Assembly (NCBI GenBank): GCA_018818785.1
Contig: JAHIRF010000011.1
Coordinates: 1-64,000, forward strand
Source of the DNA: Thermoplasmatota archaeon
GTDB lineage: Archaea; Thermoplasmatota; Thermoplasmata; UBA10834
DNA: 64,000 bases
Direction: 5' to 3'
This document shows, piece after piece, positions 1,308 through 38,403 of this stretch. The position numbers and the translations under genes are program-made. The stretch's first letter is position 1, and each line of letters starts with the position of its first letter. The notes beneath the pieces were generated by a model that had not been told where the DNA came from, ran no database searches, and was given only the letters and a program-made list of their open reading frames with translations.

Positions 1308-2939
1308 TCACACGGTGAATGGCAACCCAGAGATGCCTTCCTTCTGAAACGCTCTTATTATTTCGTTGGCGGTCTTATACGCTGTCATATTCGTCTCGAT
1401 CATCTTCTCGATTATGCGCGCCCTCAAGGCGAGCTCCTTGTAGATGTCCCTCTTATCCTTGTATCCCCTCTTGACCGCAATCTTCTCCTCAAGAATGAAC
1501 GAATTGTTCATGCCTCTGAATACATGTTGGTCGCTGACAGGATTCCACACGAACACGGCTCTTGTCATCACACCGCCCATCGATTCGCTGTAACCGAGGA
1601 TCTCCTCGACAGCCAAGGTTCTCCTGATGAGTTTGCCTCCTCTGTAGACCCCTGCCTGGAACACTGCGACATTAAGGTTGTCCATGCTCGTAATGGGCAC
1701 ACTGATCGGTGCGCCAGTGAACCTCTGAATCATCCTCTTCACGGATGCGGCGTGGAATGTAGCCATGACTGGAATGCCCGTCTGCATTGCCTGGAACGCG
1801 ACGTTTCCCTCCTTCCCTCTGATCTCACCGACTATGATGTAATTCGGTCTCGACCTCAGGCCTGATTTGAGCAGCGCAAAAGTATCCACTCTGCTATCTT
1901 CGGGGCCGAACTCTCTCGTGGACAATTGCTGCCAGACTTCATGAGGTGGCTGCACCTCGAGGGTGTCCTCTGCGGAGAATATCTTCTGATCATACCTTAT
2001 GAACGGGAATATCGCATTGAGTAACGTGGTCTTACCTGAGGCAGTCTCGCCGCAGACGAACACACTCATTCCGTTCTCGAGACATAGCCAGAGATAGGCC
2101 GCTTGCTGTGGTGAGATGGTATTCCACCCTGCGAGTTGTGCGACGCTGAGCGGCTCAGTCGAGAATTTTCTAATCGTGAATGTGGGGCCATTTACACTGA
2201 CGTCGTCTGCGTAGATGATGTTGATACGCGATCCATCCGGAAGGGCACCGTCGATTATCGGTCTCGAGATCGACGCAGGTCTCCCCATCCTCTCGCTCAT
2301 TCCTTTTGCGTATTTGTCTAAATCCACCAACGCATCGAATCTGACGTTTGTCTCCACCATTCCCATTACCTTATGGTATAGGTTGACCTTCCCAAGGCCG
2401 ACACAGTGGATATCTTCGATGTACGGGTCTCTGAGCACCGGTTCGAGCGCCCCGTTCTGTAGAATGTTCCTCTTGACATAATACTCGATTATCTCGAAAT
2501 CGTTCTCTGGCATGTAGACCTTGCTATTCGGTTTGAATAGCTGCGCGACCTTGGATGGCGGTCGCCTTTCCGTGACTTCCACGATCTCTCCGAGGAGCTT
2601 ATCGAGCACTTCATTGAATTCGGCATCTGTGGTATGTGTCTTCTCCTTTCCGGACTTGACGAATATATGATTGACAACATTGTCGTAGTGCTTCGTCAGT
2701 TCAGGGGTCAGCACGGGTTGTATGGTGTCGTACTTATGCCCCTCATCCTTTGATCCATGCAGGTGTATGAATATGGGGTCGCCCACGGGGTACACGACAT
2801 CCACTGTGGTCTCCTTGCCGAGATCTCTGCTGAGCGTGTCCATGAACTTCGGGGTCTGCGTCGTGTTCTGAGCGTACTCCTGGAGATACACGTTGAGGTG
2901 CGGGTTGCGTTCAAGTACTCTGCTGAATTTGGCTGGCAT
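1308..2939 (-). CDS. flaI: Archaellum motor ATPase FlaI/ArlI
   Basis: VFVCGETASGKTTLLNAIFPFIRYDQKIFSAEDTLE, RPNYIIVGEIRGKEG; follows flaH; start at MPAKFSRV preferred over 2972. Confidence 0.95.
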   Translation of the reverse strand: MPAKFSRVLERNPHLNVYLQEYAQNTTQTPKFMDTLSRDLGKETTVDVVYPVGDPIFIHLHGSKDEGHKYDTIQPVLTPELTKHYDNVVNHIFVKSGKEKTHTTDAEFNEVLDKLLGEIVEVTERRPPSKVAQLFKPNSKVYMPENDFEIIEYYVKRNILQNGALEPVLRDPYIEDIHCVGLGKVNLYHKVMGMVETNVRFDALVDLDKYAKGMSERMGRPASISRPIIDGALPDGSRINIIYADDVSVNGPTFTIRKFSTEPLSVAQLAGWNTISPQQAAYLWLCLENGMSVFVCGETASGKTTLLNAIFPFIRYDQKIFSAEDTLEVQPPHEVWQQLSTREFGPEDSRVDTFALLKSGLRSRPNYIIVGEIRGKEGNVAFQAMQTGIPVMATFHAASVKRMIQRFTGAPISVPITSMDNLNVAVFQAGVYRGGKLIRRTLAVEEILGYSESMGGVMTRAVFVWNPVSDQHVFRGMNNSFILEEKIAVKRGYKDKRDIYKELALRARIIEKMIETNMTAYKTANEIIRAFQKEGISGLPFTV

Positions 2940-2949
2940 CGTCGCTACC

Positions 2950-3648
2950 TCACACGACGGAAGTGATCTCAATGACCATTCCGACGTTCGGCTCTATCCT
3001 GAATCCAACCACTGGCGATACCCTGAATTGTGTGCCCCCGAACCTCTTCACCATGATGCTCCTCGATATCATCCCGCCAACCTGTGAGACGACAATGCTC
3101 AGGTAGACATGGCTATCGGATTCGAAAGGAGCCAATGATTTCGTCTCGATTTCCTGCGGGTCGACCGTGATGACGATGCTCTTCCCCATCCCCGTCAGCT
3201 TCTTGAAGAACGAAAGGACCTTTATGCTATTGTCTTCTCCGCGAAGGCTGTTGCTCACAAGGCTGGAGAAGGTATCGATTATCGTTATGTCGCTCTTGTA
3301 CAATTCCTCTGAACTGATCAGCATGCCCAGGAAGTCCTTTCGGCTATTGCCTGTTCCTACAAGAGGGTAGACGGGCACGAATTTGAGCTTGCCATTCAAC
3401 AACCACGATGCGATCGGATAATCCAGGGAATACATCTGGTTGATGAAATCCTTGACCGTCAGTTCCGTGGAAATGCAGGTGACCGAATACTGGTTTGACA
3501 GGAATCCGTAGATCATGCGCTGTACGATGGCGCTTTTCCCATTGCCATGAGCGCCTTCGATCAGAGTGATAGTTCCCGCAGGGAGACCTTGACCTAACTG
3601 ATCATGCAGGTCGTCTCTAGGTATCTGGAGCTTATAGGTCTCTCCCAT
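2950..3648 (-). CDS. flaH: Archaellum KaiC-like ATPase FlaH/ArlH
   Basis: Walker A GAHGNGKSAIVQRM, RecA-like fold, upstream of flaI. Confidence 0.93.
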   Translation of the reverse strand: MGETYKLQIPRDDLHDQLGQGLPAGTITLIEGAHGNGKSAIVQRMIYGFLSNQYSVTCISTELTVKDFINQMYSLDYPIASWLLNGKLKFVPVYPLVGTGNSRKDFLGMLISSEELYKSDITIIDTFSSLVSNSLRGEDNSIKVLSFFKKLTGMGKSIVITVDPQEIETKSLAPFESDSHVYLSIVVSQVGGMISRSIMVKRFGGTQFRVSPVVGFRIEPNVGMVIEITSVV

Positions 3649-3663
3649 TGGGGAGCCACCTCA

Positions 3664-4110
3664 CTAGATCCGGAAGCTGAGTCTGTCCATTATGCCGTTT
3701 TCCGTCGTCACAGTGACCGTATGATCCCCCGATGCCAAAGTCTGGTCGATGGTGATCAATATCACGCTAGACGGATCCCAATACGACGATGTGTTCCCGC
3801 TCAGCGAAAGGGTGTAATCCGTGACCACCATGCCATCCAGCATTACAGTGATATAGTTTTGGTTCAGAACCGTATTGCCTAGGTTCTTGACATATATCCT
3901 CACCGGATCGTTGGGCACGTTCGTAGGGTCATTGATGATCGATATCTCTGTCAGCATCTCTTTCTGGATATTGTCACTCTTCTGATCGATTCCACTCGTG
4001 ATGCCGTATACGCTGTTGGCAGCTGCGGCCACGACAGCAGACGCTACTATGACGGCTGACACGAAGAATATCAACTGTGTCGACGCACCACTTGCGCCCA
4101 TTATTCCCAC
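3664..4110 (-). CDS. flaG: Archaellum stator-like protein FlaG/ArlG
   Basis: N-terminal TM helix (ASTQLIFFVSAVIVASAVV) and Ig-like C-terminal segment ending HTVTVTTENG; position between flaF and flaH. Confidence 0.8.
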   Translation of the reverse strand: MGIMGASGASTQLIFFVSAVIVASAVVAAAANSVYGITSGIDQKSDNIQKEMLTEISIINDPTNVPNDPVRIYVKNLGNTVLNQNYITVMLDGMVVTDYTLSLSGNTSSYWDPSSVILITIDQTLASGDHTVTVTTENGIMDRLSFRI

Positions 4111-4113
4111 CTC

Positions 4114-5307
4114 TCAGAGCATGATGATATCTGATATCCCATTCTCAACCACCACCTTCACGCTCGTACCGAGCCTCTCGATCACGAGCCCATTCACACT
4201 ATCTGACACGAATATCTTGCCCGTTGCGTCCACCCCCCAAACCGAATCGCTGAGGCCCTCATCTATTGTGCCTCTCATCGTACCGTTCTCATAGGCGACG
4301 AGTATCTCGTCGCTGTTGTTCGTTATGAACAAGCTCCTTTCATCGAGACCCCCGGCACTGACGGATATGTCCGTTGTCGATGAGAGCATGCCGGACCCGA
4401 TTATCTGCGCTCCTTCACTTCCGTCGAGTCCATACCTGTCGATATGGTTGCTTCCAGAGCTGTTGTCAAGAACGAATATGTATGCGCCTACGGTGATGTC
4501 TATCGGACTGGTCATCGTGCCGCCGTTGGCGATTAGTTGATCGACGAAGACGCCGGTCGATATATTGAATCTGTCTATGTGGTCGAAGTTGTCGATCATG
4601 TAGATGTAGTCAGAATCGATTGCGAATGATACTGGTGTTGATGCGTTTGTCGCATCCGAGACGAACACATCGACCCAGTTTCCGTCTGTGTCGAATCTAT
4701 CTATGTGTGACGCCTCGTCTAGAACGTATAGATACTCACCGAATACTTTGATGTCACTGGGTGCCACCATGTGTGCGCTGTCAGTGATTGTGAAACTGAA
4801 TGTGCCAGTAAGGGTGAAAACGTCAATGCTGTTTCCGTCAAGGACATATGCGCATTCGCCAACCGATAAGCTAGTTGGCGAGGAAAGCTGTGCATCGTTC
4901 GCAACGAGGTTTCTTAGACCTACGTCAGAATCGAAGTCTATCAATGGGTCGTTGACGGTGATCGTGAGCACCTCGAGTGGCAGCCAGATGTCGGTTGTCT
5001 TGCCTTCGATGTCTGTGATGAATGAAGACATGAACAGGCCGCTGACGAGGAGGTTCGATTCGCTTATCTCAAGGGCGATGCTTCCTGTATTCTGCACCAG
5101 GACCTCGAGATCATTCGTGTCGCGATAGTAATTCACGTCGATTATACTGATTTGAGTCTGCGATCTCTCGCTCATATCATCGTATCTTTCATCCAAAGAC
5201 ACGGTTACTTTATCAAACGCATCGGTTACCGAGGCGTAAAGAATAGAAAAAAGAATGAGAAAGGCGGCGAGGAAAATCGCCATTGTAGCCGAGACACTAA
5301 ACCCCAT
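4114..5307 (-). CDS. flaF: FlaF/ArlF with an inserted NHL-like beta-propeller
   Basis: N-terminus MGFSVSATMAIFLAAFLILFSILYASVTDAFDKV and C-terminal SVKVVVENGISD are FlaF-like; about 260 aa of repeated [PxxISV..YxYVLDxxxHIDRFxxxG] blades between them. Confidence 0.82.
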   Translation of the reverse strand: MGFSVSATMAIFLAAFLILFSILYASVTDAFDKVTVSLDERYDDMSERSQTQISIIDVNYYRDTNDLEVLVQNTGSIALEISESNLLVSGLFMSSFITDIEGKTTDIWLPLEVLTITVNDPLIDFDSDVGLRNLVANDAQLSSPTSLSVGECAYVLDGNSIDVFTLTGTFSFTITDSAHMVAPSDIKVFGEYLYVLDEASHIDRFDTDGNWVDVFVSDATNASTPVSFAIDSDYIYMIDNFDHIDRFNISTGVFVDQLIANGGTMTSPIDITVGAYIFVLDNSSGSNHIDRYGLDGSEGAQIIGSGMLSSTTDISVSAGGLDERSLFITNNSDEILVAYENGTMRGTIDEGLSDSVWGVDATGKIFVSDSVNGLVIERLGTSVKVVVENGISDIIML

Positions 5308-6481
5308 GAAAGCCCTCCAGACTCTCCTTGAACTTCGATATGTTCTGTTCGAGGGAGTTTAGCCTATCTTTGTCGACTTCGAGCCCTGCTATCTTCTGGA
5401 CGAACAGGAGTGACTTCAGATGGTCGTCGGCTGACAGGCGCCAGTCTTCGACCTTCTTGTAGGGTGCTGCTTGTGGTGGGGGTAGATCCCTGAAGACATC
5501 CTCACGGACCTCTTCTTGGCCCATGTATTTCGTGACGTCCTGCAACTCACCACGGGCATAGGACATGATTTCTGATTTCACATCCTCGCTTATCCACCCT
5601 ACGTCTACGTAGTAGTCAAGGGCGAGTGATATCCTGTCTCTTGTCAAGCGTTCGAACAGGAATTCTATCCAGCGCATGACAAGGACTAAGGTGAGGTAAT
5701 CGTGTGGTATGTATGCCAGCAAAGGCTTCTTGTTATGCTTGCTCCTTGCTGCCGCACGCACCTGTCTCTCATATCTCTCGTCGGTCGATGTCTTGTCCAT
5801 CGTCGGTGGAGTATCTCTCCTTTGTCCAATCGATACTGTCTCCAAGGGCATTGTCGACGTCCCTGGCTCCCACGGGGTGGCGTCCCTACTCTTCTTTGAT
5901 GCCGCGCTCCTAGCTGAAGATGGCGTGTCGATCTCCCCTTCGCCGAACGGTCTGAACTCAGGGATATCCCCGTCGAGCTCGATCGTTCCGAACGAGATCT
6001 CGTCAGCTGGCTTCTCCGTCTGCTTCTCCACTGGTTTGGGAGGAGACTGTTCCTTCGGAGGAGCTTCTTTCTCTGACATATCAATGAACGGATTGAACTT
6101 CGCGGAGACGACTTCGTATACTGACAGGAGCTTTCTGATGTCCTGATCCATCTGGGTGAGTTTATCTCTGACCTTCGAGTTCTCGTTCCGCTCATTCGTC
6201 AGAGCGGAGTCGATTCTCCCGATCTTGTCTTCGATCTCTTCCAGACGACCCATGAGCTCGCTGAGCTCTTTTACACCAGTAAGTCCTCCCTCACCCGAGC
6301 TATCGTCTTCGAGGTAGTCCTCATCGTCGGTGGGCGACACTATATCTGATCCGTCGCTCCCTTCTGCTGCGTCATCGAAAGTCTCCCCTTCCGTATCATC
6401 GAACTCGTCCTCGAAGTCTTTCAACTTCCTACGAGCTGAGGAACCATCTTTTCCAGGTTTCTTGCGGAACAGGCCGGCCAT
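5297..6481 (-). CDS. Archaellum accessory protein, FlaC-like coiled coil fused to a FlaD/E C-terminal domain
   Basis: KLLSVYEVVSAKFNPFID (FlaC-like) and C-terminal RWIEFLFERLTRDRISLALDYYVDVGWIS...; acidic linker; start at MAGLFRKK. Confidence 0.85.
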   Translation of the reverse strand: MAGLFRKKPGKDGSSARRKLKDFEDEFDDTEGETFDDAAEGSDGSDIVSPTDDEDYLEDDSSGEGGLTGVKELSELMGRLEEIEDKIGRIDSALTNERNENSKVRDKLTQMDQDIRKLLSVYEVVSAKFNPFIDMSEKEAPPKEQSPPKPVEKQTEKPADEISFGTIELDGDIPEFRPFGEGEIDTPSSARSAASKKSRDATPWEPGTSTMPLETVSIGQRRDTPPTMDKTSTDERYERQVRAAARSKHNKKPLLAYIPHDYLTLVLVMRWIEFLFERLTRDRISLALDYYVDVGWISEDVKSEIMSYARGELQDVTKYMGQEEVREDVFRDLPPPQAAPYKKVEDWRLSADDHLKSLLFVQKIAGLEVDKDRLNSLEQNISKFKESLEGFHGV

Positions 6482-6523
6482 TTTCGATACACCTAACCCC
6501 GTGCAGTCCTGGGAAAACATCTT

Positions 6524-6564
6524 CCCTCACCTCTTGGAAAGAGGTGAGGGGGAGAAATCTCCCC
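6524..6564. terminator. Two tandem perfect hairpins between archaellin 1 and FlaCDE (attenuator, terminator or processing site)
   Basis: CCCTCACCTCTT-GGA-AAGAGGTGAGGG (6524-6550) and GGGGAGA-AA-TCTCCCC (6549-6564), sharing 2 nt. Confidence 0.55.
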
Positions 6565-6594
6565 AAATTGGGATTTGATTGAGCTAGCGTCTCT

Positions 6595-7239
6595 CTACTT
6601 GAGCACCACTACGCTGCTTGCCTCGAGGGTCGAAGGAGCAGTTATCTCCAGATATGTCGGCACGCCGTGCTTGGGGATCAACAGGAGTGTCAGCTGTTCC
6701 TGTGGGTCAAGCACCATATCGATGCCACTTGTTGCGTTCACGTCGATTTCAATCTGGAAGACATCTCCAGCGGTCATCATGACTGCAGTGGTTGACGGAT
6801 CCATGTCTCTGAGCTCAGATGCTGTGAACTCTGTCGCAGATGCAGCAGATGCGTATGAGAGCGTTATTTCTGATGCCACGCCTCCACCAATCGTCTGCGT
6901 AACCTCAATTATCGTGTTCTCGAGGTTGATGCCCGGGCTGCCAGCGATCAAAGCTATCTTTATGTAGAGGTGGTCAACCGCAGGTGCGCCATCTGTCGAT
7001 CCCCATACAGCAAGGACCTTGAACCCTGCAGCAACGTCCTGTATGGCCTCGTCACCAGTCGACTCGGCCTGCTGTTGCAGCTTGTATGCGGTCTGAACCA
7101 AGACACCCGCTGCCACAGCGGCAACGATTATCATGGCAATGAAGATAAGAAGGGTTCCAACACCCATCTCGCCTTCCTCTTCCATTTTTCTCTTTTTCCA
7201 CGCTAATTTGTTCATATTTCTATTCCTCCAACTTTGCAT
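6595..7239 (-). CDS. Archaellin (flagellin) 1
   Basis: Class III signal [40 protein letters not shown] and C-terminal [18 protein letters not shown]; true start may be downstream (MNKLA...). Confidence 0.9.
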
Positions 7240-7549
7240 CTCTTTCCCGGGTCACGTACCCGAGGGACGTTCGGCACCCAGCCGACGAGGAGATCGTCCG
7301 AGCCGATCCTAGCTCTCCTGCCTATTGACAGGACATCGAGAGCGTCCGCTACCCGATGGTGTGTCCAAAAAGCACGGTTTCAACGCCCGCAGCGAGTCTT
7401 GCCTAGTACTGGAGCGATCACATAACTCCTGGCGACAGCCAGACCGTTCCATCCTAACTGGTCCTCTCGCCTCACCTCCGATGGTAACCGCCGCCGTGCC
7501 CTTGCAGCGGGGAGTGAGAGAGATGCACCCCTCAAGGTTGTGCTTGAGA

Positions 7550-7575
7550 GGCACTATCCACAGGGCATGTAGACC
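7550..7575 (+). repeat. 26-bp element GGCACTATCCACAGGGCATGTAGACC (copy A)
   Basis: Exact inverted match to 9546-9571. Confidence 0.9.
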
Positions 7576-7648
7576 TCTCTCGAGTCTTACTATCAGAAAT
7601 ATATATCTTAAACATTAGTATACAAATATCTAGAAAAATTATGAGGAG

Positions 7649-7658
7649 TGATTCTCAT
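7649..7658 (-). promoter_or_regulatory. Archaellin motif ATGAGAATCA (copy A)
   Basis: Upstream of archaellin 1; same 10-mer at 11172-11181 (-) and 11779-11788 (+). Confidence 0.55.
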
Positions 7659-7684
7659 AGGTGATTTGCGTCTTCGCCAAATCA

Positions 7685-9406
7685 TCAGATGAGATTCACA
7701 TATCTGTAAGTCCCGAGGTATGGGATCGAACAGTCCTCTATCGTCGGCTGGCCTATGCTGGGGATGAACTTCATCGAGAACGCCGATTCAGCATGAAGGT
7801 TCAACCCTATCTCTCCAGCGTCCACGAATATCTTCACAAGCCCTCCATCCGAGAGGGAGAAAGTGCTCGCGAATATGCCATCAAGATCCCTGAGTATCTG
7901 CACAGAGAATCTGTCAGCGGTAGCTCCGGCCGGTCCGAATTCCGCGGAATTGAATCCCAGCGTGACATCCTTCTCGCCATCAGTGATCTCTATCATCAGG
8001 GAGGTGAACAGGATCGGCATGCTTCCAGGCACTGTCTTGACCTTGATCTCGATCATTTGGATGGTGTTCGATGGTATCACCGGTTGTGCATAGTTATCTG
8101 CTGCATCCACAGCTACTACAGTATAATAGTACAGAGTGCCGGATACTCCGGAATAATCGTAGTAATGGATCGTATTGCTGTCGACGGACGCGATCGGAGT
8201 GGAGTTCCGCAACTCCTCGACGCTATCGAGCGCGGACATGCTGGTACTCCTGTAGATCAGATATTCACCGATGAACGTCTCATCATCGGACGCCTCGCTC
8301 CAAGTCATCTCGACAGATTGTATGTATTGCCTTACGCAGAACGCCTGCACCGCGGATGGAGCGATGGAATCCACATTCTCAGCAATGTATGACAGTGTTC
8401 CCAAGGAGACCTGGTTCCCTGCCCAGTCCTCGACAATCACATAATACGTATAGGTTCCCTCATCGCTCGGCGCGTCAGCATAGCTGGACGCTGTCGAGTT
8501 GAGGGTCGCGATCAGTTCCGCTCCGATGGGTACGGATATGATTCTTCGTCCATCGACCATCACGTTCGCTAGGGATCCAACGGATACGCTGCTTCGATAG
8601 AGCAGTTGTTGGCTGACTCCACTTCCTGCATCGGTTGCAGGAACCCAGAATAGCATGACAGAATAGTTATCGGGTCTCGATGTGCTCGTCATGGACCCGC
8701 CGACGGGTACGGTCTGGTCCTCATCATGACTTGCATCGTCTGTGGATGCAGAACTATCTATCGGGGTATAGATCGCGCGGTTCCCCGCGGCATCCACGCC
8801 GACTATCGCGTATGCATATGAAGTGGAATTATCGTCTCTGGCCGTATAATCCGTATACTGTCTATCTGATCCGAAACCTGCGGTCAACCTAGCCATTTCG
8901 TAGGATGGATTGAGTTGGCTGAGTGTCAACAGTCGATTCCTCGCGATCTGTTCATTGAATACCGCGGGGTTCGTCGGGTCGTAGACTGAAGTCCTGTAGA
9001 TTATCTCTTCAGCGAGTCCAGAGCCATAATCTATAGCGGAGCTCCAGTTGAGGACTATTCCAAGTGGTGAGACCCCGTCACGTGATTCTGTCACATTCCA
9101 TAAGATGCCACCAGTAGGAGGTTGATCATCTCTCGAAGGCATGTATCCCGATGCGATTGACGAATCTGCACCGTCAGGGTTCCGATCGCCCGCGACGTTC
9201 ACGACCGTGAGCCCTCCAGAAACCTCTGACACGGCATCGTCGACCGTCCTCTGCCCCTGTTGCTGCAGCAATGCCGCAGCGTATAGTATCAATGACGCCG
9301 CGATTGCAGCCACTAGTACCATCGCGATGAAAATGATGAGCGTACCTATACCGACGTCGGCTTCTTCATCCTTCTTTATGCTCGTTTTAGCCTTCTTGAG
9401 TCCCAT
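7685..9406 (-). CDS. Archaellin 2 with about three inserted FN3-like domains
   Basis: DEEADVGIGTLIIFIAMVLVAAIAASLILYAAALLQQQGQ archaellin N-terminus and archaellin-like C-terminus; middle contains repeated [VxLxW..A.D.GSGxxxxxIYRSS...YxYxVxxxDxAGN]. Confidence 0.85.
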   Translation of the reverse strand: MGLKKAKTSIKKDEEADVGIGTLIIFIAMVLVAAIAASLILYAAALLQQQGQRTVDDAVSEVSGGLTVVNVAGDRNPDGADSSIASGYMPSRDDQPPTGGILWNVTESRDGVSPLGIVLNWSSAIDYGSGLAEEIIYRTSVYDPTNPAVFNEQIARNRLLTLSQLNPSYEMARLTAGFGSDRQYTDYTARDDNSTSYAYAIVGVDAAGNRAIYTPIDSSASTDDASHDEDQTVPVGGSMTSTSRPDNYSVMLFWVPATDAGSGVSQQLLYRSSVSVGSLANVMVDGRRIISVPIGAELIATLNSTASSYADAPSDEGTYTYYVIVEDWAGNQVSLGTLSYIAENVDSIAPSAVQAFCVRQYIQSVEMTWSEASDDETFIGEYLIYRSTSMSALDSVEELRNSTPIASVDSNTIHYYDYSGVSGTLYYYTVVAVDAADNYAQPVIPSNTIQMIEIKVKTVPGSMPILFTSLMIEITDGEKDVTLGFNSAEFGPAGATADRFSVQILRDLDGIFASTFSLSDGGLVKIFVDAGEIGLNLHAESAFSMKFIPSIGQPTIEDCSIPYLGTYRYVNLI

Positions 9407-12455: not shown

Positions 12456-13628
12456 ATGAACGCGCGACAGAGTAGCCAGAATGATCGGGGTCCCACAGAC
12501 ATCGACCTCGCCAATTACGCAAAGGCCTATATGGCCGCTTACATGAGCGCTGTCCAGAGCGAGAGCCCTGAACATATTCCTCAGTTCTACAAGAATCACC
12601 CTTACGGCGTCGAAGTCTGCTATATGCCGAATGGCAGTTTCTGCATGCTTTTCGAGAGAGCTGACAGACCCACGATCGCGGTCTCCGGCCAGGAGTGGGA
12701 CTATGTCATGGGCAAGATCATGTCGGGCGTGTTCTATCTGGCCACGGTATACTCTCACGAAGGGTCTTCGGTCGAGGACGCCTCCTCGCGAGGCCGTCGC
12801 GATGCGATAAGGGACATACGTGCGATGGAGAGTTCCGACATCGTGGATGCCACTCGTCAGCTGGAGAACATTGTGCGTGAATTGAGTGATGTGAATCAAT
12901 GGATGAAGAATCCGGTGAAGATGGCTGATAGTGCGCTAGCGAGACTCGAGCCGCTTAAGCAGACGATCGCCCGCTCCGGCCCGATAATGGACAAGATGTC
13001 CATGGTGGATGGCCTGAGACGATATTCTACTGGGCCATCGGAGATGAAGCTGGATTCAGATGGAATTGAGATGCTCTCATCTGTAGTGACGCAGATGACG
13101 GACCTGTCGGAACTGCTCAGGGATGTGAAACTACAAGGGGAGAAGCTCGAGGAAATCGAAAACCATCTCAGAACCGAGGTCCACGACTTCAAGATAGAGC
13201 TCGACAAGAAGATCGCGAAAGGCCTCGGTGTGATACTGTCCACTACGGATAGGAAGATCGACAAGGCGTTCGCATCCATACAACCTGGCCAACAGGAAGA
13301 TGAAAGCGACGATTCGTTGGACGATCTATACGATGAGGTGAACGCCCTCAGGGAAGCTGTGGATCAGCTGAACGCTGAAGAGAAAGACGACACAGACGAG
13401 AGATTGGCTGCTCTTTCCGATGAGGTGTTGTCACTCAAGGATGCAATCAGCAACATCAAGATCCCGATGATCGAGCCTCCGGTTATGCCTGAGCCAAAGA
13501 TCCCTGCCGAGCTACTCACTGGGATGCGAGACGTCAGAGGGGAGGTCGGCCAGATCAATCTGCGTGTCAAGAGGATCGAGGAATATCTCACCGCTCTGTC
13601 GGCGGCGAGGCGGTCATCTAACAGATGA
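12456..13628 (+). CDS. Coiled-coil protein of unknown function next to the archaellum locus
   Basis: Long heptad-rich region (LSELLRDVKLQGEKLEEIENHLRTEVHDFKIELDKKI...); start at MNARQSS preferred. Confidence 0.7.
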   Translation: MNARQSSQNDRGPTDIDLANYAKAYMAAYMSAVQSESPEHIPQFYKNHPYGVEVCYMPNGSFCMLFERADRPTIAVSGQEWDYVMGKIMSGVFYLATVYSHEGSSVEDASSRGRRDAIRDIRAMESSDIVDATRQLENIVRELSDVNQWMKNPVKMADSALARLEPLKQTIARSGPIMDKMSMVDGLRRYSTGPSEMKLDSDGIEMLSSVVTQMTDLSELLRDVKLQGEKLEEIENHLRTEVHDFKIELDKKIAKGLGVILSTTDRKIDKAFASIQPGQQEDESDDSLDDLYDEVNALREAVDQLNAEEKDDTDERLAALSDEVLSLKDAISNIKIPMIEPPVMPEPKIPAELLTGMRDVRGEVGQINLRVKRIEEYLTALSAARRSSNR

Positions 13629-17490: not shown

Positions 17491-17901
17491 ATGAAGTTCG
17501 TCAAGCTCTCCCAGTCCGAGTTCGAGGAGATACGGAAGCTATACGAAGGTGTCATGTCTCAGGCTTGCCACGGTCTGTTCTTCAGGGAGGGCATGATCCT
17601 GGGAGAGGAGATATCCAAGATTGCGCTTCAAGAGCCTGAGAAATACTTCGAGATATGTGGCAATCTGCTCAGGGCACGAGGTTGGATCGATAATATCGTC
17701 TTCGAGGAATCCACTGCGACGGCAGAGGGGTCCGTGGAGTCGACCCAATCGGATATACCGACTTGTCACAGGCTGAGAGGTATTGTGAAGAAGATATACG
17801 AGGCCAAGACTCACAGGAGATTCCACTGCGACGAGATCGAGTGCGTGAGCAAAGGCGACAAGCACTGCGTTTTCAAGGTCGAACTGGTAGGAGGGGATTG
17901 A
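17491..17901 (+). CDS. V4R-domain protein
   Basis: C-terminal RLRGIVKKIYEAKTHRRFHCDEIECVSKGDKHCVFKV. Confidence 0.75.
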   Translation: MKFVKLSQSEFEEIRKLYEGVMSQACHGLFFREGMILGEEISKIALQEPEKYFEICGNLLRARGWIDNIVFEESTATAEGSVESTQSDIPTCHRLRGIVKKIYEAKTHRRFHCDEIECVSKGDKHCVFKVELVGGD

Positions 17902-17902
17902 A

Positions 17903-18250
17903 TTGGAGCTTAAGCCAGCCCTCAGGGCGTTGAGGGAGAGTTGCGGGGCAATAGCATCTGCGATAATAAGCAGGGACGGACTCGTGATTGCAGCTGATCT
18001 GCCCGAAGGTGTATCCATGGACACATTCGCCATCATGTGCGCTACTCTCATCGGCGCGGCATCTACTGCCAACTCCGAGTTAAGAGTCGGCACGCCGCAA
18101 TCCGTGGTAGTCGAGTGCGAGGATGCGAAGATGGTCGTCGTCGGCGCCGGAAGAAAAGCCCTCGTCGTCACCGTTATCTCCAGGAAGAACGATGAATTGA
18201 TCGCGAAGAAGGAACTGCTGAAACTCGCGGATTCCATCAAGATGATCTGA
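17903..18250 (+). CDS. Roadblock/LC7 domain protein
   Basis: AIISRDGLVIAADLPEGVSMDTFAIMCATLIGAASTANSEL; TTG start 1 nt after the V4R stop. Confidence 0.85.
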   Translation: MELKPALRALRESCGAIASAIISRDGLVIAADLPEGVSMDTFAIMCATLIGAASTANSELRVGTPQSVVVECEDAKMVVVGAGRKALVVTVISRKNDELIAKKELLKLADSIKMI

Positions 18251-36327: not shown

Positions 36328-36475
36328 GTACTTACTTGCATATATCCGTTACTGACCGCTCCGTCATATGCGATATGACGGTCGACCAGAATGGATGTAC
36401 TGGACTGGTTATCATTAGTGAGATTCCTGGTCTGAACGGTTATATAGACAAGGGATTATTTCCAAAGCGTTCTGA

Positions 36476-36988
36476 ATGCCTTCGAGAAAGTACATACTCA
36501 AACTCTGTCTCCTCGGTGACGGTGCGGTCGGGAAGACGAGTCTTGTCCGAAGATATGTTCATGATTCTTTCGATGACAGGTATCTGATATCTTTCGGCAC
36601 TAAAGTGTCCAAGAAGACCGTCACGGTCTCGGAGGTGGACGCCGATCTAATGATATGGGACATCCTGGGACAGAAGACCCACGAGTCCCTCCATTCCGCG
36701 TACTACAGGGGCGCTGCAGGCGCCTTCGCCGTATGTGATTTCACCCGAAGGCAGACGGTCGAATCCGTGGCCACTTGGATCGATGGCATCCGATCGGTGG
36801 TGGGTGACATCCCGATCATCATGCTCGCCAACAAGAGTGATCTCCCGAAGGCTTTCCCTTCCGAAGAGATACGTTCCATAGCATCATCGAAGGGCTGTGA
36901 GATGATGGAAACGAGCGCCAAGACGGGAGAGAACGTCGAAGAGGCCTTCATCGCGCTTACCAGGAAGATGTTGGAGGCGAATCCGTGA
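36476..36988 (+). CDS. Rab/Ras-like small GTPase
   Basis: G1 GDGAVGKTSL, G3 WDILGQK, G4 NKSD, G5 ETSAKTGENVEEAF. Confidence 0.92.
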   Translation: MPSRKYILKLCLLGDGAVGKTSLVRRYVHDSFDDRYLISFGTKVSKKTVTVSEVDADLMIWDILGQKTHESLHSAYYRGAAGAFAVCDFTRRQTVESVATWIDGIRSVVGDIPIIMLANKSDLPKAFPSEEIRSIASSKGCEMMETSAKTGENVEEAFIALTRKMLEANP

Positions 36989-37917
36989 AGCAGATCCCGT
37001 TCTTCGTCATGCCTGGAATCGCACTCTCACACCTGCGCGAGGAGCTCGAGATCGTCGAGGGTGAGCACAGGGCGAAACTGATGGTATACCGATACGGTCA
37101 GAGGTGCGGCCGCGCGTTGGTCCAGAGCTATGCCATGTCATGTTCTGGATTGATCGAGGTCAGGGCCGTGATCGAGCCCATATGGATGGAGGCAGGTCTC
37201 AGCAGGATAAAGGTCGATTCCGCGGAGGAGTCCGACATGGTCGTCAGCCTCGAGGATTCGATAGAGGCGAAGGAGGGCAAGACATGCGAGTTCGCGAGAG
37301 GCTACCTGTCAGGCATCGTATCCGAGCTGACCGGCAAACGGTTCGAGGTCGATGAGGTGGAATGCGCGAGCACGGGATACATCGCGTGTGTTCTCCAGGC
37401 CTACGAGGTCGTTGATAACCTCAAGCCTACCAGACAGGTCGAGGCGGAGACCGCGAGGAAGTACAATCTGGAATCCGGCTATTCCTATCTGATAAAGGAA
37501 GAGATCCCTGACCAGGCATTCGATATATTCGTCGATTCTGCGAAGCATGGTGTTCCGTGCCTTTGTGTCACCCGTGAATACCCCGAGAAGGTGAAGGAGC
37601 GGTGGGATCTGAAAGGCACCCCATTCCTATGGTTGTCGATGGATCAGGAGAAGACATATTCGAGGGAGCCTTCGAACCTGGCGCTGCTCTACTCTGATAT
37701 GAAGACGTTCATCACGGAGAACAACAACTGCGCGGTCCTCCTATCCGGCATCGAATATCTGATATCGCAGAACGGTTTCCAGAAGGTCCTGAAACTGCTT
37801 CAACACCTAAACGACAAGGTCGCTGTTTCAGATTCCACACTCTTCGTCCCGATAAGTCCGTTGACCGTTTCGGAGCCGGAGCTGAAGATGCTCGAGAAAG
37901 AGATGAGGTCCTTCTAG
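36985..37917 (+). CDS. V4R domain plus DUF835 protein
   Basis: V4R-like CEFARGYLSGIVSELTGKRFEVDEVECASTGYIACVL then DUF835-like SGYSYLIKEE...CVTREYP...LLSGIEYLISQNGF; 4-nt overlap with the GTPase. Confidence 0.8.
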   Translation: MKQIPFFVMPGIALSHLREELEIVEGEHRAKLMVYRYGQRCGRALVQSYAMSCSGLIEVRAVIEPIWMEAGLSRIKVDSAEESDMVVSLEDSIEAKEGKTCEFARGYLSGIVSELTGKRFEVDEVECASTGYIACVLQAYEVVDNLKPTRQVEAETARKYNLESGYSYLIKEEIPDQAFDIFVDSAKHGVPCLCVTREYPEKVKERWDLKGTPFLWLSMDQEKTYSREPSNLALLYSDMKTFITENNNCAVLLSGIEYLISQNGFQKVLKLLQHLNDKVAVSDSTLFVPISPLTVSEPELKMLEKEMRSF

Positions 37918-37950: not shown

Positions 37951-38403
37951 TTGAGGTACGCCGTGATCGTCTGCCCCAAGTGCAACAAGGCAAAAGGTAT
38001 CGACACGATCAAGAAGACGACCACATGCCCTTGTGGAAGGGAGATCGTGTTCGCACGGACAAAATTCTATTTCGAGACCGACTCACCTCTCGAACTGGCC
38101 GGGGCCGTCGCCGAGGCCAATGCGCAGCTGGGAGACGGGAATGTCCCGAAGATCGCCAAGAAACCCCGGAAAAGGGATGCCTATTCGTCCATATCCGAAA
38201 GGGTGCGGCCCATTCGCGACCCTGTCGAACGCATGCGGGTCATCGCATCGGAGCTCACAGAAGCGAAGGGGGAGTTCGGTCATGAGGATATCAAGCGGGT
38301 CCTGACATTGACGGGCAGAGACACTCCGGAGGACATCATCGCTAAACTGCAGAAGGCGAACCTGATCTACGAGGTCTCCGAAGGCCGGTTCAGATCAGTC
38401 TGA
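37951..38403 (+). CDS. DUF1922-like zinc-ribbon protein with C-terminal helical/wHTH segment
   Basis: VCPKCNKAKGIDTIKKTTTCPCGREI; TTG start. Confidence 0.65.
   Translation: MRYAVIVCPKCNKAKGIDTIKKTTTCPCGREIVFARTKFYFETDSPLELAGAVAEANAQLGDGNVPKIAKKPRKRDAYSSISERVRPIRDPVERMRVIASELTEAKGEFGHEDIKRVLTLTGRDTPEDIIAKLQKANLIYEVSEGRFRSV

Follow-up and report, generated by a model that had tools for sequence, protein, structure and literature searches.

The eukaryotic TRAPP core is built from Bet3, Trs31 and Trs33 together with the longins Bet5 and Trs23, and its GTPases are Rab1 and Rab11. Roadblock proteins form a longin-like class that stands at the base of TRAPP-type GEFs. Within TRAPP, the Bet3 relatives serve as platforms in the GTPase exchange complex; Bet3 does not catalyse exchange on its own, the smallest active GEF comprises four subunits, and the longin Trs23 provides the main Rab interface (PMC10152722). 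Bet3 is homologous to the V4R domain, and two GxxxG glycine pairs, in helices 2 and 5, define the V4R/Bet3 group (PMC2253512). Characterised V4R domains are dimeric sensors that respond to hydrophobic ligands or redox state and relay this input to a partner (PMC7264223, PMC3729527, PMC2253512). Podar et al. (PMC2253512) left undecided whether trafficking exapted V4R from an unrelated sensor role or whether V4R was already at work in a system of this kind in prokaryotes. Structures of Asgard Rab, Roadblock and TRAPPC3 proteins have been published (PMC10933270), and in the Asgard archaeon MK-D1 the GTPase genes as a rule do not share operons with genes of this sort (Tran et al., PMC10933270). 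Wuichet and Sogaard-Andersen, in their survey of prokaryotic GTPases, make no mention of V4R. In the open-access literature, to which our search was confined, we found no description of linkage between V4R and GTPase genes.

We examined such a linkage in a window (the whole stretch of 64,000 nucleotides that was analysed) from a Thermoplasmatota genome, which comprises 1.97 Mb in 12 contigs, is 94.5% complete and encodes five small GTPases. Only one of the five, at 36476..36988 on the + strand, is adjoined by a V4R gene. This gene starts with ATG and encodes 170 aa in the ORF list, and its product matched the Ras family PF00071 in Pfam with E=3e-38. All G motifs of a canonical small GTPase are present as initially annotated, including G1 GDGAVGKTS, G3 WDILGQ, G4 NKSD and G5 TSAK, and in the ortholog alignment the P-loop K-T-S, D62, the catalytic Gln (Q66) and NKxD were kept by 28 of 28 sequences. 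Possession of G1 to G5, the catalytic Gln and WDxxGQ places the protein in the Rab/Ras superfamily. The G3 motif had been called unusual; this holds for the Leu that replaces the Ala of Rab WDTAGQ, but not within the family itself, where W, D, L, G and Q are invariant. In a PDB search with the single sequence, the Thorarchaeota Rab 7ezb was the top match (E=3e-31), and with a profile of the 28 orthologs the best 60 matches were 60 Rabs, Thor-Rab included. No prenylation Cys was found at the C-terminus, and 1 of the 28 orthologs has a Cys among its final 8 residues. Rab-style prenylation and trafficking are therefore not indicated, and since this Cys is a mark of Rab proper, we call the protein Rab-like. 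In this respect it also differs from the GTPases served by TRAPP.

The TGA stop of the GTPase gene and the GTG start of the V4R gene overlap by 4 nt (36985..36988, +), and most orthologous pairs keep a spacing of -4 or similar. A 4-nt overlap was thus annotated correctly, but its letters are GTGA and not the ATGA originally given. About 30 nt upstream of the GTPase ATG, inspection of the sequence revealed a TATA-like box, TTATATAG (36440..36447, +), which suggests that a putative near-leaderless transcript opens the operon. A further gene at 37951..38403 (+), found in the ORF list and encoding 150 aa with a weak Pfam match to DUF5817 (zinc ribbon), is probably co-transcribed with the pair. It is kept in near families only and does not accompany the module consistently, and PrsW-like, TetR and ABC neighbours are variable and fall outside it.

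The V4R gene (36985..37917, +) encodes 310 aa, in which Pfam recognised V4R at aa 86-137 (E=3e-12) and DUF835 at aa 176-307 (E=8e-29), in agreement with its first description as a V4R-DUF835 protein. The AF2 model has a mean pLDDT of 87 but a pTM of 0.60, which indicates well-folded domains whose mutual placement is unsure. The V4R/Bet3-fold domain spans about aa 1-147 (36985..37425, +) and carries the glycine pairs G38/G42 and G106/G110, which are invariant in 28 of 28 V4R orthologs. Its top Foldseek matches were the phenol sensors DmpR, PoxR and MopR, with E down to 3e-9 (PoxR, E=2.5e-8). Bet3 ranked after them, with E=2e-6 and a target TM-score of up to 0.70, and further matches included the Thor TRAPPC3 7yh3, with a target TM-score of about 0.65, and MJ1460. 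A V4R profile search gave MJ1460, PoxR and MopR as best matches, and Bet3 was not among its matches. The homology of V4R to Bet3 on which the annotation relied is thus borne out both by the published work (PMC2253512) and by the model, whereas Foldseek E-values and profile matches do not place this domain nearer to TRAPPC3/Bet3 than to other V4R domains.

The resemblance to sensors extends to a predicted zinc site, C101-E124-C127-C135 (37285..37389, +). These residues align with the Cys/Glu/Cys/Cys ligand positions of PoxR and MopR, where zinc is bound by three Cys and one Glu (PMC10715001), and are kept in 27 of 28 V4R orthologs. The zinc cysteines of DmpR are residues 151, 177 and 185 (PMC7264223), and in the methanogen redox regulator MsvR cysteines 206, 232 and 240 influence redox-dependent DNA binding (PMC3729527); the spacing of the three Cys (26 and 8) is identical in DmpR, in MsvR and in the V4R described here. 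The phenol sensors also resemble this system in coupling V4R to a P-loop NTPase. In PoxR, MopR and DmpR, however, the NTPase is an AAA+ domain in cis, whereas here a Ras-superfamily GTPase is encoded in trans and a DNA-binding domain is absent; MsvR likewise differs in being a DNA-binding transcription regulator.

The DUF835 domain (37510..37905, +) has a RecA/KaiC-like fold, as judged from Pfam and from the Foldseek match of this part to the KaiC-type ATPase FlaH (4yds). It lacks a P-loop, and a search for Walker A in the V4R-DUF835 sequence found none. DUF835 has been termed an inactive KaiC, or 'iKaiC' (PMC5847659). Elsewhere in the same genome, contig C12 carries an operon (L103:6107-8291) of V4R, a KaiC-type ATPase, a stand-alone DUF835 and a BtuR/CobO cobalamin adenosyltransferase. 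Five loci of Thermoplasmata relatives have operons of KaiC, a short GTPase and a long GTPase, without V4R.

The survey of archaeal genomes for conserved GTPase-V4R adjacency that had been proposed as a check was carried out within the phylum, and the outcome named beforehand as a refutation, absence of a conserved neighbourhood, was not observed. Among loci found through GTPase similarity, the closest orthologs have V4R-DUF835 directly downstream, usually with a 4-nt overlap. Loci found through V4R similarity were drawn from the class and the phylum, and the better-scoring V4R matches were inspected. A same-strand adjacent GTPase or a fusion was present at 73 of 84 scorable V4R loci. The linked loci cover 23 of the phylum's 24 scorable family codes, some of them outside the class of the window genome. 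Eleven of the 84 had no neighbouring GTPase; one family was the exception among the 24 scored, and one more gave a contig-edge locus only. When only loci that had not been found through the GTPase were counted, 52 of 63 were linked, in 20 family codes. As controls, V4R genes of a Roadblock-linked family had a GTPase within about 1.5 kb at 0 of 30 loci, and DUF835-only proteins had one nearby at 0 of 28. A Fisher test of linkage against the controls gave p ~1e-15, but it assumes independent loci, an assumption that does not hold here, so the family count is a safer statement than the binomial or Fisher values. Recurrence throughout the phylum, together with the two controls, rules out chance adjacency of GTPase and V4R.

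Sharing an operon need not mean that two proteins touch, and V4R could sense for an unrelated pathway while being merely co-regulated with the GTPase. In near families a wider block of DUF5817, PrsW-like and PAPS-reductase-like genes is also syntenic, which fits this reading and makes closeness alone weak evidence there. Beyond the near families, however, the block is gone and the GTPase-V4R pair remains, so plain synteny does not account for it. The order of the genes is reversed in two further families, in one of them in a single genus, with V4R-DUF835 preceding the GTPase. One locus, L165, encodes a single 527-aa ORF with the GTPase at aa 4-184, a V4R-like part at about 196-312 and then DUF835; its V4R part was missed by Pfam V4R and matched by the family profile alone. 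Given also that the related V4R and DUF835 families were never linked to a GTPase at the loci examined (0/30 and 0/28), we regard mere co-regulation as very improbable and a dedicated partnership of GTPase and V4R-DUF835 as highly probable. A second GTPase-V4R fusion is probably present at L236 (G029:C427), tentatively so because the contig ends within its V4R. A search for more fusions across the family of genome G021 returned that genome alone. DUF835 was rejected as the linked element, since DUF835-only loci showed no linkage and five V4R-GTPase pairs occur without DUF835. Two loci carry a doubled module, GTPase, V4R-DUF835, GTPase and V4R in a single operon, which suggests that duplication yielded two V4R paralogs and that these could heterodimerise as Bet3 relatives do. 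In the tree of GTPases, most V4R-linked members fall into a single 51-row clade of weak support (SH-aLRT 84), and the other linked ones lie elsewhere.

How might the partnership work? Of the readings considered, the initial suggestion that the V4R protein controls the neighbouring GTPase is the most probable, and the best explanation, which we favour slightly on balance, is a V4R sensor-scaffold through which the nucleotide state of the GTPase is set. V4R-DUF835 would dimerise through its Bet3/V4R fold, and the V4R cavity and zinc-cysteine site would bind a hydrophobic ligand or sense redox state. Direct contact of V4R with the GTPase would then set its nucleotide state by exchange, hydrolysis or locking, with GEF, GAP, GDI-like action or effector binding as candidate effects. 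DUF835, as an inactive KaiC domain, may be a docking or oligomerisation module, and in some lineages Roadblock would join to give a composition like that of a minimal TRAPP core and its Rab.

Gene linkage cannot reveal the direction of control. We consider it somewhat more probable that V4R stands upstream and acts on the GTPase, as the experimentally studied DmpR and MsvR use V4R as an input sensor. With the direction turned round, the GTPase would be upstream, and its GTP-bound form would recruit or switch the V4R-DUF835 dimer, which would act on a target through DUF835 and KaiC-type partners. V4R and DUF835 do occur with a KaiC ATPase and no GTPase in the same genome (L103), and KaiC and GTPase are also found together in operons and in a fusion; what stays constant may thus be a P-loop NTPase with an adaptor. 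Against an effector role stands, besides the sensors already mentioned, the persistence of V4R-GTPase linkage where DUF835 is absent, and we hold it to be possible though rather unlikely.

Whether the regulation by V4R which we prefer takes the form of exchange was considered in the light of TRAPP. The reading of the locus as a Rab/TRAPP exchange module is offered here as a hypothesis. Both systems have the V4R/Bet3 fold, both GxxxG pairs and a Rab-like GTPase. Unlike TRAPP subunits, the V4R here has a predicted zinc sensor site and a DUF835 domain, and the window operon is without Roadblock. A GEF role of V4R does not follow from the homology, because the minimal GEF of TRAPP needs four subunits and Trs23 is the main contact; that V4R-DUF835 is specifically a GEF for its GTPase is a doubtful proposition at about one chance in four.

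Roadblock genes do occur in GTPase-V4R operons of two lineages. L250 and L251, from two genomes of one genus in another class, have GTPase, V4R-DUF835, V4R and Roadblock contiguous on one strand, and L229:1436-4132 (G034) is an operon of Roadblock, Rab-like GTPase, V4R and a 393-aa fusion of KaiC and small GTPase. These operons resemble the TRAPP core in composition, and they would supply the parts for a true TRAPP-type exchange, in which V4R dimers would flank a GTPase-binding Roadblock dimer and the V4R C-terminus would open the nucleotide pocket. The Bet3 TM-score of 0.70 accords with such an arrangement, as does a separate V4R-Roadblock operon in the window itself (17491..18250). The latter consists of a second V4R protein of a different V4R family (17491..17901, +; 136 aa, model pLDDT 85), which is not part of the pair, and, 1 nt after its gene, a Roadblock/LC7 protein (17903..18250, +; 115 aa, PF03259 E=3.6e-11). 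This two-gene operon was kept at 30 of 30 loci in many families of the class. Its V4R is of another family, however, and nearer MJ1460/PoxR than Bet3; Roadblock adjoins the GTPase-V4R genes in two lineages only; and the zinc site predicted on V4R speaks for a sensor. Exchange of the TRAPP type is thus improbable. So too, if slightly less, is a Thermoplasmatota pre-TRAPP complex in which V4R and Roadblock dimers would exchange the nucleotide of the Rab-like GTPase once V4R sensed a ligand or a redox signal; if such a complex exists, the Rab-V4R-Roadblock partnership predates, or is independent of, eukaryotic membrane trafficking.

The V4R-Roadblock operon is also present in genomes without the GTPase-V4R pair. 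As no GTPase lay within 1.5 kb at its 30 loci, it was rejected as part of the GTPase cluster, and it merits separate study as a TRAPP-like sub-complex. No Roadblock gene lies beside the window GTPase, the nearest (17903-18250) being paired with this other V4R. The locus is like MglA-MglB and the Streptomyces conservons in that a prokaryotic Ras-like GTPase gene stands beside that of a small regulator, but the regulator adjoining the window GTPase is V4R-DUF835 instead of Roadblock.

The Thorarchaeota Rab 7ezb and TRAPPC3 7yh3 (PMC10933270) are similar to the present pair, the former as the closest solved match of the GTPase in the single-sequence search and the latter in its TRAPPC3 fold, cavity and zinc (predicted here). 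Unlike the situation in Asgard MK-D1, linkage here is phylum-wide and in non-Asgard archaea. The pieces are known, and the conserved V4R-GTPase coupling and three-component operons in non-Asgard archaea appear to be new. They suggest that V4R partnered Rab-like switches in lineages other than eukaryotes and Asgard archaea. The V4R-GTPase pairs, the fusion and the Roadblock operons make the question of Podar et al. testable in systems of two to four proteins. Matching Rab-like GTPases to regulators from Asgard genome layout is hard (Tran et al., PMC10933270), and the V4R proteins are candidates for the cognate regulators of such GTPases in archaea.

Two other features of the genome were recorded. 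An archaellum cluster at 1308-9406 (-) of the window encodes a FlaI-type ATPase, a FlaC-FlaDE fusion and two archaellin-like proteins, one of which, at 573 aa, has a long extension beyond the archaellin N-terminus. An uncharacterised protein family is represented by copies at 12459-13628 (+) of the window and at L102:7254-8306, which are 39% identical; one is located close to the archaellum cluster, and the other is transcribed divergently beside another small GTPase gene.
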